Below, one piece after another: positions 9,480 through 44,833 of a stretch of DNA of 50,454 nt; position 1 is the first letter of the stretch; every line of letters starts with the position of its first letter. Below the pieces are notes generated by a model. It had not been told where the DNA came from and ran no database searches. It saw only the letters and a list, made by a program, of their open reading frames with translations. A program made the position numbers and the translations under genes. This DNA comes from an uncultured Oscillospiraceae bacterium (GTDB taxonomy: Bacteria; Bacillota; Clostridia; Oscillospirales; Oscillospiraceae): assembly GCA_947631845.1 (NCBI GenBank), contig CANRMY010000011.1:1-50454 (forward strand), read 5' to 3'.

Positions 9480-9543
9480 GGGCGGGCCGGCCGGGTGTCC
9501 GGCCCGTACAGACGGATGGGCCGGCCGGGTGTCCGGCCCGCCG
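9480..9543. repeat. two GGGCCGGCC-GGTGTCCGGCCC palindrome units
   Basis: Two near-identical units (about 9481-9508 and 9517-9540) lie between murB and rapZ. Each has GGGCCGG facing CCGGCCC around a short centre. They belong to the dispersed palindrome family described at 16120-16325 and directly adjoin the structured element at 9548. Confidence 0.7.
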
Positions 9544-9547
9544 GGGC

Positions 9548-9647
9548 CCCCATCGGGCCGTCGCCCGATGGGGAAAGGAGAAGCGAACCGTGCGAGTGAG
9601 CCCGAATACTTGCAGGGCGAGCCATCGCCGGTTCCGCGACGACGCGG
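9548..9647 (+). ncRNA. candidate structured RNA element, copy A
   Basis: A 100-nt element that aligns without gaps to 44229-44328. P1 is an 11-bp stem (9548-9558/9563-9573) with loop CGTC. AAAGGAG follows. P2 pairs GAACCG (9585-9590) with CGGTTC (9629-9634). P3 pairs GCCC (9600-9603) with GGGC (9615-9618) around the conserved loop GAATACTTG-CA. P5 is CCGCG-ACGA-CGCGG (9634-9647). In copy B, P1, P2 and P3 have different bases but still pair, which is the signature of selected RNA (or DNA) structure. It ends one base before the murB stop and is antisense to the murB transcript. Strand is assigned from stem and loop layout only; no promoter is visible. Confidence 0.6.
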
Positions 9648-9648
9648 A

Positions 9649-10560
9649 TCAGGGAATGATCCTGATCTCCGGCTCTAAGGTGACGCCGGAGGTGAGATAG
9701 ACCCTTTCCCTGACCTGGTCCATGAGGGAGAGGATATCTTCGGCGGTGGCGTTCCCCAAGTTGATGAGGAAGCCCGCGTGCTTCTCGGAGACCTGGGCGC
9801 CGCCCACGGTGAGGCCCTTCAGGCCCGCCGCCTCGATGAGCCGGGCGGCGAAATCCCCCTGGGGGCGCTTGAAGGTGCTGCCGGCGGAGGGAAAATTCAG
9901 CGGCTGCTTCTCCCGGCGGCGGCGGGAAAGGTCGTCCATCTTCTCCCTGATCTCTTTTGGGTCGCCGGGGCGGAGGCGGAGGACGGCGGAGAGGATGGTA
10001 TCGCCGGCGCCCTGAAAGCGGCTGTGGCGGTACCCGAAATCGCACTCGGCGCGGGGCACGGTGCGCAGGGCGCCGCCGGCGTCCAGGTAGGTGACTGCCT
10101 CGATCACGTCCCGAAGCTCCCCGCCGTAGGCCCCGGCGTTCATGTAGATGCCGCCGCCCAGGGAGCCGGGGATGCCGTGGGCGAATTCCAGGCCCGTCAG
10201 GCACGCCTCCGCCGCGGCGGAGGCCAGCCGTGAGAGCAGGACGCCGGCCCCGGAGATAAGGCTGTCGCCGGAGAGGCGCACGGTGTCGAGCCTGGCAGTG
10301 GACAGCACCGCCAGGGTGTGGGGCCTGTCGGAAAAAAGGAGATTGGAGCCGTTGCCCATGACGAGGCGGGGCAGATCCCGGCGCTGAAGCTCCCGGGCAG
10401 CCCAGACAAAGGCCTCGATGCTCTTGGGCTCGGCGAAAAGGCTCACCGTGCCGCCCACCCGGAAGGTGGTGTGCTTCCGCATGGGCTCCCCGAAAAAGAC
10501 GGCGGTGCCGGGGAAGGCGGCGTTCAGATCTTTGGCGAAGGCGTCAAAGGCGTTTTCCAT
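9649..10560 (-). CDS. murB: UDP-N-acetylenolpyruvoylglucosamine reductase
   Basis: FAD-dependent reductase that turns UDP-GlcNAc-enolpyruvate into UDP-MurNAc, the second committed step of peptidoglycan synthesis. It has 303 residues, normal for the compact type II MurB of Gram-positives. The FAD-binding part shows KHTTFRVGG, GNGSNLLFSD and FAHGIPGSLGGGIYMNAGAYG. The C-terminal part has SAGSTFKRPQGDFAARLIEAAG and KHAGFLINLGNATAEDI. The ATG at 10560 shares one base with the hprK stop (TGATG), so translation is coupled. rapZ follows after a repeat-filled gap of about 230 nt. Confidence 0.97.
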   Translation of the reverse strand: MENAFDAFAKDLNAAFPGTAVFFGEPMRKHTTFRVGGTVSLFAEPKSIEAFVWAARELQRRDLPRLVMGNGSNLLFSDRPHTLAVLSTARLDTVRLSGDSLISGAGVLLSRLASAAAEACLTGLEFAHGIPGSLGGGIYMNAGAYGGELRDVIEAVTYLDAGGALRTVPRAECDFGYRHSRFQGAGDTILSAVLRLRPGDPKEIREKMDDLSRRRREKQPLNFPSAGSTFKRPQGDFAARLIEAAGLKGLTVGGAQVSEKHAGFLINLGNATAEDILSLMDQVRERVYLTSGVTLEPEIRIIP

Positions 10561-41157: not shown

Positions 41158-41697
41158 TCAGATCCTCGTAAACGTAGTCAGCTTCACGCGCCCATAGAGG
41201 TATTCCCGGCGGGCGAATTTCTCCTCCGGCAGGGCCGGCAGGGTCAGGCCCCTGTCGCTTTCGCAAATCATTATACCATTTTTATTTAAAATGTCAAACC
41301 TTCCGATGAGATTTAATGCTTTTTCCAATAAATCTCCGGCGTAAGGGGGGTCGGCCAGGATCAGATCGAAGCCCCGCGCCCTCTCCAGATAGGCCAGGGA
41401 GTCCATTCTGGCGATTTTGCCCCTGGCCTCCAGATGGGTGGCGCGCAGATTTTCCCCCACGATCCTGAGGGCCTCCGGGGATCTGTCCACAAAGACGCAC
41501 TCCGCCGCCCCCCGGGAAAGGGCCTCGATGCCCAGCTGGCCGGTGCCGGCGAAAAGGTCCAGGACCCGGGCGTTCTCCACCGCGAACTGGACGATGTTGA
41601 ACATGGCCTCCTTCACCTTGTCGGTGGTGGGGCGGATGTCGTAATTTTCAGGGGTTTTCAGCTTCCGGCCCCTGGCCGAGCCCGTGATCACTCTCAT
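41158..41697 (-). CDS. rsmD: 16S rRNA (guanine-966-N2)-methyltransferase
   Basis: SAM-dependent methyltransferase predicted to act on G966 of 16S rRNA, 179 residues. MRVITGSARGRKL is the typical N-terminus. RPTTDKVKEAMFNIV is near residue 22 and the SAM loop LDLFAGTGQLGIEALSRGA near 46. The catalytic motif is ADPPY near residue 115. The start at 41697 lies inside the uvrC reading frame, giving a 50-nt overlap; the conserved N-terminus supports this start. coaD follows after 4 nt. Confidence 0.96.
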   Translation of the reverse strand: MRVITGSARGRKLKTPENYDIRPTTDKVKEAMFNIVQFAVENARVLDLFAGTGQLGIEALSRGAAECVFVDRSPEALRIVGENLRATHLEARGKIARMDSLAYLERARGFDLILADPPYAGDLLEKALNLIGRFDILNKNGIMICESDRGLTLPALPEEKFARREYLYGRVKLTTFTRI

Positions 41698-43534
41698 GGT
41701 CTGTCACCTCGTTGCTTTCCTCACTGTGGAAATGGTCGTATACCGCCTTGGCGGCGGGGCCGGGGATCACCCCGGCCAGGTCGACGAGATCCGCCTCGGC
41801 GATGGCCTTGACGGATTTGAACCGCTTCAAAAGCTCCGCCTTGCGCTTCTCCCCCACGCCGGGGATCCCGTCCAGGCGCGAGGCCCTGACCCGCTTGGAC
41901 CGCAGGGTCCGGTGGTACTCGATGGCGAAGCGGTGCGTCTCCTCCTGGATATTCCCGATGAAGGCGAACACCGCCGGATTTGCCTGGATCCCGATCTCCC
42001 GCCCCTCCGGGGTGATGAGGGCCCGGGTCCGGTGCCGGTCGTCCTTCACCATGCCGAAGACGGGCACGGAAACGCCCTTTTCCTCCATGGCCTCCCGGGC
42101 CGCCTCGGCGTGCCTGTCCCCGCCGTCGATGAGCAGCAGATCGGGAAGCCGGCCAAAGCTCTCGTCGCCGGCCGTATACCGGGCGAAGCGGCGGCCCACG
42201 GCCTCCCGCATGGAGCCGTAGTCATCCTGTCCCTCTATTGTTTTCATTTTGAATTTCTTATATTCGCTCTTTTTGGGCTTGCCGTCCACGAACACCACCA
42301 TGGAGGCCACCACGTCGTCGGCGCCGGTGTTGGAGATATCGAAGCTTTCCACCCGCTCCGGCGGGGCCTCCAGCCCCAGGGCGTCGGCCAGCCATTGGGC
42401 CGTTTTGGACACCCGCTCCGTGGCCGTGGTGTTGCGCTCCGTCTCCTCCCGGGCGTTCTCGGCGGCGGCGGTGAGGAATTCCCGGTACATCCCCCGCTGG
42501 GGGACGGTCACCTGGACCGCGTGGCCGGCCTTCTCCGTCAAAAACCGCTGCAGCTCCTCCCTGTCCTCCGTCTCCAGGGGCAGCAGCACCCTGGCGGGGA
42601 TCAGCTCCGCATCCTGATAGTACTGCCGCACCAGCAGGGAGACGGACTCCTCCGCGTCCCCCAGGGGATCGTCAAAGAGCTCGCAGTCCTTGGCCAGCAG
42701 TTGCCCCTGGACGTAGTGGAGGACGGCGAAGGCGGATTTGACCTGGCCCTCAAAATATCCCACGGCGTCGGTGTCCGAAGCGCCCTTGTTCAGGACCGTC
42801 TGCCGCGTCTCCAGAAGCTCCAGCGCCCTCACCGTGTCCCGGAGCCGGGCCGCCTCCTCAAATTGGAGCGCCTCGGCGGCCTCGTTCATTTGCTCCGTCA
42901 GCTGCGCCGTCAGCTCCCGGCCCCGGCCCTTCAGCACCATCACAGCCTGAGCCACCCGCGCCCGGTAGTCCTCCTCCGTCAGCACCCCCCGGCACCAGGC
43001 GTCACAGACGCCCATGTGGTGGTTGAGGCAGGGCCTGTCGCGTCCCAGATCCCGGGGGAAGCGCCGGGAACAGGTGGGCATTTTCAGCGCCTTCAAAAGC
43101 ATCTCCAGTGCCGCCTTGGTGTTGCCCCGGGAGCCGTAGGGGCCGAAATACTCCGCCCCGTCCTTCTCCCGGCGGGAGGCGATGGAGAAGCGGGGGTACC
43201 CAGCCTTGCTGTCCAGCCGGATGAAGGGATAGCCCTTGTCGTCCTTCAAGAGGATGTTGTATTTGGGCTTGTAGTGCTTGATGAGGGAGTTTTCCAGCAC
43301 CAGCGCCTCAAATTCCGACTTGGCGATGATCACCTCAAAGTCGTCGATGTTGGCCACCATCGCCTCGGTCTTGGCGTTGTGGGTGCCGTGGAAGTAGGAG
43401 CTCACCCGGTTGCGGAGCGCCTTGGCCTTGCCCACATAGATCACCGTCCCGTCGGCGGCGTGCATGATGTAGCTCCCCGGCTTCAAAGGCAAGGCCGCGG
43501 CCTTTTCACGAAGTTCGTCAAGCTTGGGGTTCAC
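41648..43534 (-). CDS. uvrC: excinuclease ABC subunit C
   Basis: Dual-incision endonuclease of nucleotide excision repair, 628 residues. The GIY-YIG nuclease domain is at the N-terminus (GSYIMHAADGTVIYVGKAKA). The Cys-containing segment LGRDRPCLNHHMGVCDAWC is near residue 160, and the UvrB-binding UVR domain near 205. The RNase H-like 3' nuclease (FDISNTGADDVVASMVVF) and a C-terminal helix-hairpin-helix (LDGIPGVGEKRKAELL) follow. I chose GTG at 43534, 8 nt after AGGAGG, over upstream ATGs that run into repeat island 2. The 3' end overlaps rsmD by 50 nt. Confidence 0.96.
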   Translation of the reverse strand: MNPKLDELREKAAALPLKPGSYIMHAADGTVIYVGKAKALRNRVSSYFHGTHNAKTEAMVANIDDFEVIIAKSEFEALVLENSLIKHYKPKYNILLKDDKGYPFIRLDSKAGYPRFSIASRREKDGAEYFGPYGSRGNTKAALEMLLKALKMPTCSRRFPRDLGRDRPCLNHHMGVCDAWCRGVLTEEDYRARVAQAVMVLKGRGRELTAQLTEQMNEAAEALQFEEAARLRDTVRALELLETRQTVLNKGASDTDAVGYFEGQVKSAFAVLHYVQGQLLAKDCELFDDPLGDAEESVSLLVRQYYQDAELIPARVLLPLETEDREELQRFLTEKAGHAVQVTVPQRGMYREFLTAAAENAREETERNTTATERVSKTAQWLADALGLEAPPERVESFDISNTGADDVVASMVVFVDGKPKKSEYKKFKMKTIEGQDDYGSMREAVGRRFARYTAGDESFGRLPDLLLIDGGDRHAEAAREAMEEKGVSVPVFGMVKDDRHRTRALITPEGREIGIQANPAVFAFIGNIQEETHRFAIEYHRTLRSKRVRASRLDGIPGVGEKRKAELLKRFKSVKAIAEADLVDLAGVIPGPAAKAVYDHFHSEESNEVTDHESDHGLGQGPEAENP

Positions 43535-43560
43535 GGCGTTGGCCTCCTTTTTGTATGTTT

Positions 43561-44425
43561 CCGCCATACATGGGCGGGGGTACGCTTTCTTCTCTTTTGT
43601 GTTGACAAAAGAGAAGAAAGCTTCAAAGAAGAGAAAAACAATCGGGCGGAAGTCGCGGCCCATTCCACTCAACATCGCGCCCCTTGTTACGAATGGCCTC
43701 TGCTTCTAACCCGCTTAGCCGCTCACCGCTCTATCCACGAGGCGTGATGTCCTATTTCGCCCGCGCTGGTGCGGCGATAATCGTGTGGTGTTCGAAAACA
43801 TCGTTTCTGTTTCCGTACGGGCCGGACACCCGGCCGGCCCGTCTTCCGAATTTCCGAAAATCCTTCAATCACCGCCGTAGGGGCCGATGACTACATCGGC
43901 CCACACGCCGCACTACCGAATTCCCTTCCGTACGGGCCGGACACCGGCCGGCCCGTGCATCAATTTTCCAAAAGCCTATCGTACAACCTTGTAGGGGCCG
44001 CCGCCCTCGGCGGCCCGTAAATTCAATGGCGGCGAAGCCGCAACCTTTTTAATCGACAGCGTGCGGGAAATTCGATTGTGCGTCGGGCCGGCCGGTGTCC
44101 GGCCCGTACGGGGTGCGATGTACGAAATGCGGCAGGTTCCCCGCGGGCGCTCCCCGGGGGGGAGTCCAGATGGGGGGTCGCAACCCCCCTCTGGTCGTTT
44201 TAAGGGGGAGTCCAGAGGGGAATGGGGCCCCCTCCAAACGTAAGTTTGGTGGGGAAAGGAGGAGCGAAGCCAGCGCCTGAGGGCGAATACTTGGAGCCCG
44301 AGGTTAAGCGGCTTCCGCGACGACGCGGAAAGCCCCCCTCTGGTTTCTTTTCCTCTTTTGTTGCTTTTCTCCTTTTGGAAATCCAAAAGGAGAAAAGCAA
44401 ATCTCCGTCCGCCTGTAAGGCGGAC
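43561..44425. repeat. gene-free repeat island 2 with inverted double-hairpin ends
   Basis: This fills the gap of about 1 kb between uvrC and the Crh-like gene. The left end has CCGCC...GGCGG (43561-43577), then a 17-bp stem with GTTG loop (43584-43600/43605-43621). The right end has the same module inverted: a 19-bp stem (44361-44379/44382-44400), then GTCCGCCT/AGGCGGAC (44407-44425). Compared with island 1, several stem pairs differ in both arms. GGGCCGG palindromes lie near 43820, 43883, 43930, 43995 and 44085. The structured element at 44229-44328 sits inside the loop of a CCAGAGGGG/CCCCTCTGG stem (44212-44220/44335-44343). The remainder up to 44510 shows only a short GC-rich stretch. Confidence 0.75.
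44229..44328 (+). ncRNA. candidate structured RNA element, copy B
   Basis: A gapless 100-nt partner of 9548-9647. P1: CCCCTCCAAAC/GTTTGGTGGGG (44229-44239/44244-44254), one T-T mismatch, loop GTAA. P2: GAAGCC (44266-44271) with GGCTTC (44310-44315). P3: GGGC (44281-44284) with GCCC (44296-44299) around GAATACTTG-GA. P5: CCGCG-ACGA-CGCGG (44315-44328), identical to copy A. Unpaired AAAGGAG, GCGAA, TGA and GA are conserved. The TGA/GA pair flanking P3 would allow tandem G-A pairs (inference). No promoter is visible. Confidence 0.6.
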
Positions 44426-44569: not shown

Positions 44570-44833
44570 TTACTCGGCAAAGTCGTGGGAAATCAGCTCG
44601 CAGAGCGTCTCCACGGCGCGCTCCTCGTCCTCGCCGTCGGCGGCGACGGAGATGGTCATGCCCTTGATGATGCCCAGGGACAGAACGCCCAGCAGGCTCT
44701 TAGCGTTGACGCGGCGCTCCTCCTTCTCGATCCAGACCTGGCACTTGAATTCGTTGGCCTTCTGTGTGAAGAAGGTGGCCGGCCTCGCACGCAATCCGAC
44801 CTGGTTCTTGACCTCAACTGTTTTAGCAAACAT
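44570..44833 (-). CDS. HPr family protein lacking the phospho-accepting His15 (Crh-like)
   Basis: An 87-residue HPr-fold protein. In HPr, PEP-dependent enzyme I phosphorylates His15 in the GxHARPA motif; here the motif reads GLRARPA, with Arg at residue 15. Ser46, the HprK target, is kept in NAKSLLGVLSLGI. This combination resembles Bacillus Crh, which has Gln15 and works only in catabolite repression. So a regulatory rather than sugar-transport role is likely (inference). HprK is encoded at 10560-11501. It is a single gene with promoter, GAGGAGGGG ribosome-binding site and terminator. A true HPr with His15 should exist elsewhere if the cell has a PTS. Confidence 0.9.
   Translation of the reverse strand: MFAKTVEVKNQVGLRARPATFFTQKANEFKCQVWIEKEERRVNAKSLLGVLSLGIIKGMTISVAADGEDEERAVETLCELISHDFAE

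Follow-up and report, generated by a model that had tools for sequence, protein, structure and literature searches.

What is the 100-nt sequence that occurs twice in the window (the whole 50,454-nt stretch of DNA analyzed here, from an uncultured Oscillospiraceae bacterium), and why do its two copies differ by paired base changes? A preliminary description had aligned positions 9548-9647 (copy A) with 44229-44328 (copy B) and had read the differences as compensatory changes in three stems. The two stretches indeed align without a gap over 100 nt, with 69/100 positions identical, and the base swaps between the copies in stems P2 and P3 are as first noted. The P1 stems also pair overall, although TCCAAAC/GTTTGGT of copy B forms six of its seven pairs and contains one T.T mismatch.

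By covariance model, copy A spans 9544..9644 (+ strand, E 1.8e-18, 105.8 bits) and copy B 44225..44325 (+ strand, E 3.8e-18, 104.2 bits). In copy A the P1 hairpin CCCC-ATCGGGC-CGTC-GCCCGAT-GGGG (9548..9573, +) precedes a long arm, which consists of the 5' strand of P2 (9577..9595, +), starting with a tandem G.A part (GGAGAAGC...), the P3 stem GCCC/GGGC with its loop (9600..9618, +) and the 3' strand of P2 (9625..9644, +), which has GCGACGACG at its end. Copy A as first delimited stops one base short of the stop codon of an antisense ORF (9649-10560, -). This ORF (9649..10560) is murB, with PF02873 and TIGR00179 above cut-off in Pfam and NCBIfam, and its orientation relative to copy A is that of the copies beside tRNA 3' ends described below. 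Copy B is flanked, by eye, by the arms of an outer stem, CCAGAGGGG on the left (44212..44220, +) and CCCCTCTGG on the right (44335..44343, +), a context that recurs in loci L001, L028, and L034; its neighbor in the window is an HPr gene (44570-44833, -; ORF with Pfam/NCBIfam support).

Two details of the original outline had to be redrawn. The hairpin CCGCG-ACGA-CGCGG does not belong to the element: CGG directly follows GACGACG in only 14 of 180 copies, and the 3' half of this hairpin is therefore flanking sequence. AAAGGAG and GCGAA, described as unpaired, are not wholly so, as GGAGGAGC lies opposite GCGACGAC in a helix that includes two tandem G.A mismatches.

The resemblance is not that of a chance pair. 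In the genome to which the window belongs (2,590,296 bases in 119 contigs), AAAGGAGNAGCGAA is matched exactly at 37 places (19 forward, 18 reverse), as compared to none for the reversed pattern. Most of these copies continue to GCGACGACG and then diverge, and they lie in several different surroundings. The covariance model gave 80 matches at E <=0.01 among 150 candidates scored in this genome, some of them partial or nested. The preliminary description had named two copies only, with no further covariation, as the outcome that would speak against it; with 37 exact and 80 model matches this is not what was found. Among 119 related genomes, 49 had a match at E <=0.001: 28 of the 34 in the genus, 14 more in the family, and 7 more in the order. 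In a sample of the phylum, 3 of 299 genomes had a match at 1e-5, including the genome studied here; of the other two copies, one (L370) lies directly before a phage DUF2800 gene and one (L369), by eye, near a terminase-like gene. Since we scored at most 12 candidates per genome in the phylum sample, about 30 in the related genomes, and 150 in the own genome, the high copy numbers are lower bounds. Carriers among the matches listed include Pseudoflavonifractor capillosus, P. phocaeensis, Candidatus Flavonifractor intestinipullorum, and Amedibacillus dolichus. Four viral contigs had an exact pattern match, and blastn found no match for copy A in phage records or for the copy of L140 in phage and plasmid records.

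The fold of the element is under selection, as had been proposed from the two copies, and compensatory double changes support this strongly. RNAalifold, applied to 18 varied copies, gave 27 pairs, 13 of which had changes on both sides. To avoid alignment choices, we then scored 57 gapless rows of 102 columns, one for each distinct copy of a single length among the loci then collected. P1 was paired in 84% of cells with 77 double-change cells (shuffle mean 25), P2 in 96.5% with 73 (mean 23), P3 in 99.6% with 40 (mean 14), and P2c in 99% with 10 (mean 2). The paired fraction of P1 is lowered because the scored rows differ in loop length. The basal pair 38-98 was G-C in 49 rows and C-G in 8, with no mixed rows. 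For these four stems and this pair, the double-change values were reached by 0 of 500 shuffles. Sliding one strand by 1-3 columns reduced pairing to <=0.55 (P1), <=0.39 (P2), and <=0.5 (P3); double-change cells in P1 fell to 45-50 at offsets of -2 and -1 as compared to 77 in register, and those in P3 to 20 at offsets of one as compared to 40, while P2c retained 82% pairing at -1 as compared to 99% in register. The pair set 52-53/83-84, on the other hand, was paired in 19% of cells, its double changes were reached by 212 of 500 shuffles, and it is present in one subtype only.

The pattern by which the 57 rows were collected fixed the two basal G.A motifs (except column 39), pairs 35-101, 41-95, and 42-94, and the 3' end, and left free only pair 38-98, the third G.A motif, P1, P2, P2c, and P3. 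That third motif (56-57/77-78) was kept in 56 of the 57 rows. In loci found by the covariance model, whose rows are model-fitted, the four basal G.A positions were kept in 36, 34, 35, and 36 of 36 rows; over all 71 distinct model-aligned rows, likewise model-fitted, the values were 62 to 64. We take the + strand as the folded strand because the opposite strand would have C.T mismatches instead of tandem G.A mismatches. The 5' end varies between contexts, being GGGGCCCC in some and CATAT or CATT in others; most copies were collected with patterns that included the 3' end GCGACGACG, whose constancy is therefore partly by construction. A variant 5' part (GAGCGCGTTTACAAGCGAACAG...) stands before the common P2 arm in twelve loci (L129, L142, L153, L156, L158, L162, L170, L211, L217, L224, L230, and L236).

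The element is mobile in the genomes of gut bacteria: its core occurs with and without the same surroundings, and cores are far more alike between sites than the surroundings are. Insertion left no visible target duplication and mostly replaced about 8-10 nt. The counted copies are not all independent, as some share ancestry. In a helicase-type gene, loci L168, L150, and L228 are filled while L284 is empty and nearly identical around the site, with ACAAACGG between CAGACCGG and AGGATGGG. Here 8 nt were replaced for a net gain of 105 nt, and the reading frame was kept. Another copy, in L194, lies about ten codons from this site. Plasmid homologues of the gene are annotated as SNF2-related or DEAD/DEAH helicases; the piece searched had no Pfam or NCBIfam match. 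A boundary between two phage genes is occupied in 5 of 80 fetched loci (L375 and L380-L383, as in L370), and the empty loci read have about 9 nt in the place of the element. In L370 the element (1530-1610) connects the two phage genes; the upstream frame appears to close on its TGA, and its GGAGGAG...ATG could open one that continues into the downstream DUF2800 gene.

Similar pairs of filled and empty sites were obtained from host repeats. The repeat R2 (GAGCGGCTAAGCGGGTTAG...CCATTCGTAACAAGG) has 49 places in the own genome, of which, after filters, 8 were filled and 27 empty. The element cores in filled copies are 98.2% alike, while left flanks are 72.1% alike among filled copies as compared to 74.7% between filled and empty ones. 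This argues against passive amplification within one host repeat, as core identity far exceeds flank identity. The right flanks of filled copies are closer together (82.9% as compared to 66.6%) because only one R2 subtype is filled, and gene conversion within this subtype may play a part. At the site, CGNNNACG is often present in empty R2 copies, three of which have CGACGAC, so that target loss is ambiguous in R2; insertion without loss, or gene conversion, is possible. One empty R2 lies in the window itself (43660-43724, -), upstream of the ORF 41648-43675. The window also holds, at 9480-9541 and 43820-44110, several copies of the palindromic repeat GGGCCGGCCGGGTGTCCGGCCC and its relatives, the center of which is occupied by element copies elsewhere in the same genome.

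Element copies occur at the tips of hairpin repeats, the P3 loop of the element itself included. In genome G019, the core sits at the tip of the hairpin repeat R5 in 17 of 18 stretches with a core (20 were fetched), where it replaces a tip hairpin that is present in 20 other R5 copies; at three sites read letter by letter, 8-10 nt were lost. In G024, 10 of 14 fetched copies lie between the R6 arms GGACGGTT..GTCAC and AAAAGAACCGTCC, or between slightly altered forms of these arms; 131 matches to R6 lack the element, and more letters were lost at the filled R6 sites. In L028, L035, and L036, a second copy stands in place of the P3 loop of the first. As a general rule, however, palindromic flanks are weak: flanks scoring >=12 were found for 10 of 178 copies as compared to 0.7% of permuted pairs, and for 4 of 111 non-redundant copies. 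The R5 repeats (L475-L494) form a hairpin family of their own, and their tip stem shows compensatory changes (CCGCC/GGCGG, TGACC/GGTCA, TCGCC/GGCGA, CGCCC/GGGCG). A repeat of about 390 bp carries the element in two species (L006, L016, L023, and L032 in G000; L076 in G031); its ends, TATAGCTGRCGGGAWTCGAACCC and the inverted form on the opposite side, resemble a tRNA/tmRNA 3' end.

Some copies lie in frame within coding sequence. Many open frames over copies are spurious, and we limit this statement to recognizable genes. In L063 the element is part of the reading frame of a RecD2 helicase gene and falls inside the stretch of its SH3 domain; the NCBIfam RecD2 score of 227.8 bits is below the whole-protein cut-off of 500, and the locus holds the C-terminal part only. 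The recD2 relatives that we read have shorter, variable loops at this site, and since loop length varies among them no exact empty site was found there. A coding explanation for the element itself was rejected, as L150 and L194 read through it in different frames, and so was a leader of one gene, as the neighbors differ across 117 loci. There is an excess of copies downstream of genes: among 136 copies, the right neighbor was antisense in 74 and sense in 48, and the left neighbor sense in 81 and antisense in 42.

The 3' end of the element also falls exactly at the ends of stable RNAs. Among 186 distinct pattern copies, 28 have this end within 0-3 nt of the end of a tRNA or tmRNA, as compared to a mean of 0.07 and a maximum of 2 in 2000 runs of random placement in the same loci. 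Of the 28, 25 are antisense at tRNA 3' ends, representing 11 isotypes, two are sense at the tmRNA 5' end, and one is sense at the 5' end of tRNA-Asp. As copies can be inherited in related genomes, 28 is not the number of events, to which the 13 kinds of RNA are a better guide. At +0 or +1, 40 of 180 copies have TGG, which is complementary to CCA; in 23 of these 40 the tRNA is intact. The totals of 186 and 180 retain three pattern matches (L166, L186, and L188) that look like chance in GC-rich genes. By reading, further copies abut tmRNA in L057, L087, and L192, and one abuts 5S rRNA with 2 nt between (L160). In L129, L154, L128, L133, L159, L219, and L231, the 3' flank resembles a truncated tRNA, mostly antisense; such tRNA 3' fragments (e.g. 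L129 and L154) may be remnants of attachment sites.

How would such a sequence move? It is probably a non-autonomous, high-copy structured mobile element, about 100-130 nt long, with a + strand that forms the P1 hairpin and then the long P2/P3 arm with its tandem G.A pairs. The folded single strand, RNA or ssDNA, would be what a mobilizing machinery recognizes; this machinery would act in trans, and joining to the target would start at the 3' end GACGACG. The element would be selfish, with occasional effects as a 3' tail, a spacer or an in-frame peptide. No ORF family recurred beside copies in more than 4 of 117 loci. Among the 34 genomes of the genus, RVT_1 occurs in 15; Y1_Tnp occurs in 15 of 34 genomes examined and is absent from G005, G006, G011, G014, and G016.

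One possibility is that a reverse transcriptase acting in trans copies the + strand RNA from its 3' end GACGACG, in the manner of a SINE, starting at a tRNA CCA 3' end, by template switch at the 5' end of a mature RNA, or at a nick in a hairpin loop. The folded strand, the 3' contact, the variable 5' end, the loss rather than duplication of the target, and the joining to RNA ends would suit an RNA intermediate: junctions lie at processed RNA ends, antisense at tRNA 3' ends in 25 of 28 cases and with TGG at +0/+1 in 23 copies with an intact tRNA, or sense before the 5' ends of tmRNA, tRNA-Asp, and 5S rRNA, and tandem G.A pairs suit RNA. However, RVT_1 was absent from 7 of the 34 genus genomes (G006, G011, G016, G019, G024, G031, and G033), each of which has at least 24 element matches, while G020, G025, and G026 have RVT_1 and no element, and the tRNA 3' fragments beside L129 and L154 can also be attachment-site remnants of integrated elements. 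We therefore consider this route rather unlikely. The full picture of a bacterial counterpart of SINEs is slightly more doubtful: a folded RNA of about 100 nt would undergo reverse transcription from its 3' end, with tRNA CCA ends as primers or with joining at the mature 5' ends of tmRNA, 5S rRNA or tRNA, and would spread to hairpin tips, coding sequences, and its own loop. As the missing reverse transcriptases count against an RNA intermediate, we commit ourselves only to a non-autonomous structured mobile element that would have its folded strand as substrate and a partner in trans.

Another possibility, which we also regard as rather unlikely, is that a Y1/HUH-type or hairpin-directed recombinase inserts the folded + strand as ssDNA into DNA hairpins, as modeled on IS200/IS605-derived or REP/RAYT elements. 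Structure in one strand, targets at hairpin tips, the lack of target duplication, and the Y1_Tnp found in 15 of the 34 genomes are consistent with this. Nonetheless, several element-rich genomes are without Y1_Tnp. Moreover, IS200/IS605 elements insert without target loss and with a fixed tetranucleotide adjacent on the 5' side, whereas the present element replaces letters and makes its exact contact on the 3' side.

It could also be speculated that the element is a functional RNA module, serving tRNA and protein genes as a trailer, a processing signal or a terminator and spreading between loci by recombinational copying. P1 on the opposite strand followed by a T-run resembles, by eye, a terminator after tRNAs, and the excess of copies at gene 3' ends (74 to 48 and 81 to 42 among the 136 copies) would fit such a role. 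This is quite unlikely, as the G.A mismatches become C.T on the opposite strand, the orientation at tmRNA, 5S, and tRNA-Asp is opposite to that at other tRNAs, and the in-frame and nested copies are without such a role; enrichment at convergent gene ends is also reported for the BOX, RUP, and SPRITE repeats (PMC3049150). Nor do we favor a regulatory RNA gene, given that the copies are numerous, mobile, and selective in their insertion sites.

A known RNA class such as a HEARO/IscB guide RNA, a group II intron fragment or a CRISPR repeat would share its being structured, mobile, and multi-copy, but is refuted at the sensitivity of Rfam 15 and highly improbable, and the preliminary description had not recognized one either: at gathering scores, neither the window nor 18 other loci gave a match of any Rfam family to element copies, nothing credible overlapped them at E up to 10, and no ORF recurs beside the copies. 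Rfam matches in those 18 loci were to tRNA, 5S, 23S, SECIS, glycine riboswitch, and abiF. The T-box leader in L029 (1759-1977, 109.7 bits) is a separate feature downstream of an element copy. Literature searches, including searches by element sequence strings, found no published description of the element; a catalogue of 3161 candidate structured RNAs of human microbiomes (PMC8040213) may include the fold.

We therefore return to the non-autonomous mobile element and compare it with systems already described. It is short, non-autonomous, multi-copy, and mobile, as MITEs are. In the strict sense it is not a MITE, as neither terminal inverted repeats nor target duplications were seen: the 5' GGGGCCCC (or CATAT/CATT) and the 3' GACGACG are, by reading, not complementary, outer arms are supplied by host repeats in some contexts only, and in the filled and empty pairs letters were replaced, R2 being ambiguous. 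HEARO/OMEGA RNAs are structured RNAs tied to mobility; the element differs in having no recurring ORF at 117 loci and no Rfam match. REP/BIME sequences are high-copy hairpin repeats between genes, and the element is likewise a high-copy hairpin repeat. In contrast to the REP/BIME-RAYT system, no Y1 protein is linked to it in 117 loci, the occurrence of Y1 at the genome level is patchy, and it has a defined internal architecture with strong compensatory change.

The BOX, RUP, and SPRITE repeats of Streptococcus are non-autonomous and folded like the element, overrepresented between convergent genes, inserted into one another, and spread mainly in a burst, BOX being modular (PMC3049150). As described there, BOX and RUP have terminal inverted repeats and duplicate their target (PMC3049150), whereas the element loses target letters and its 3' end can abut tRNA, tmRNA, and 5S. 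Rickettsia palindromic elements are 105-146 bp long, form long stem-loops, and reside between genes or in frame in protein genes, many of them conserved (PMC2229807). By this description they share size range, folding, and intergenic and in-frame residence with the element, while their hosts differ and they are listed with 12-bp terminal inverted repeats (PMC2229807). The same paper speaks of many small structured bacterial repeats without demonstrated means of movement (PMC2229807).

The in-frame residence in conserved genes that is described for Rickettsia palindromic elements was seen here in RecD2 (L063) and in the helicase-type gene (L150/L168/L228 and L194), which is a likeness of behavior. 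For the Rickettsia elements, neither tandem G.A motifs nor self-nesting in a loop nor joining to stable-RNA ends is, to our knowledge, reported. On our best reading, the element is likened to the Rickettsia palindromic or BOX elements, with the mechanism of its movement a proposal. With its many copies in related species, its matched pairs of filled and empty sites, a fold established by covariation, and 3' ends at processed ends of tRNAs, tmRNA, and 5S rRNA, the family makes the mode of movement, by an RNA intermediate or not, testable in cultured carriers such as Pseudoflavonifractor. These data also place short in-frame insertions in conserved genes, known from the Rickettsia palindromic elements, outside Rickettsia.
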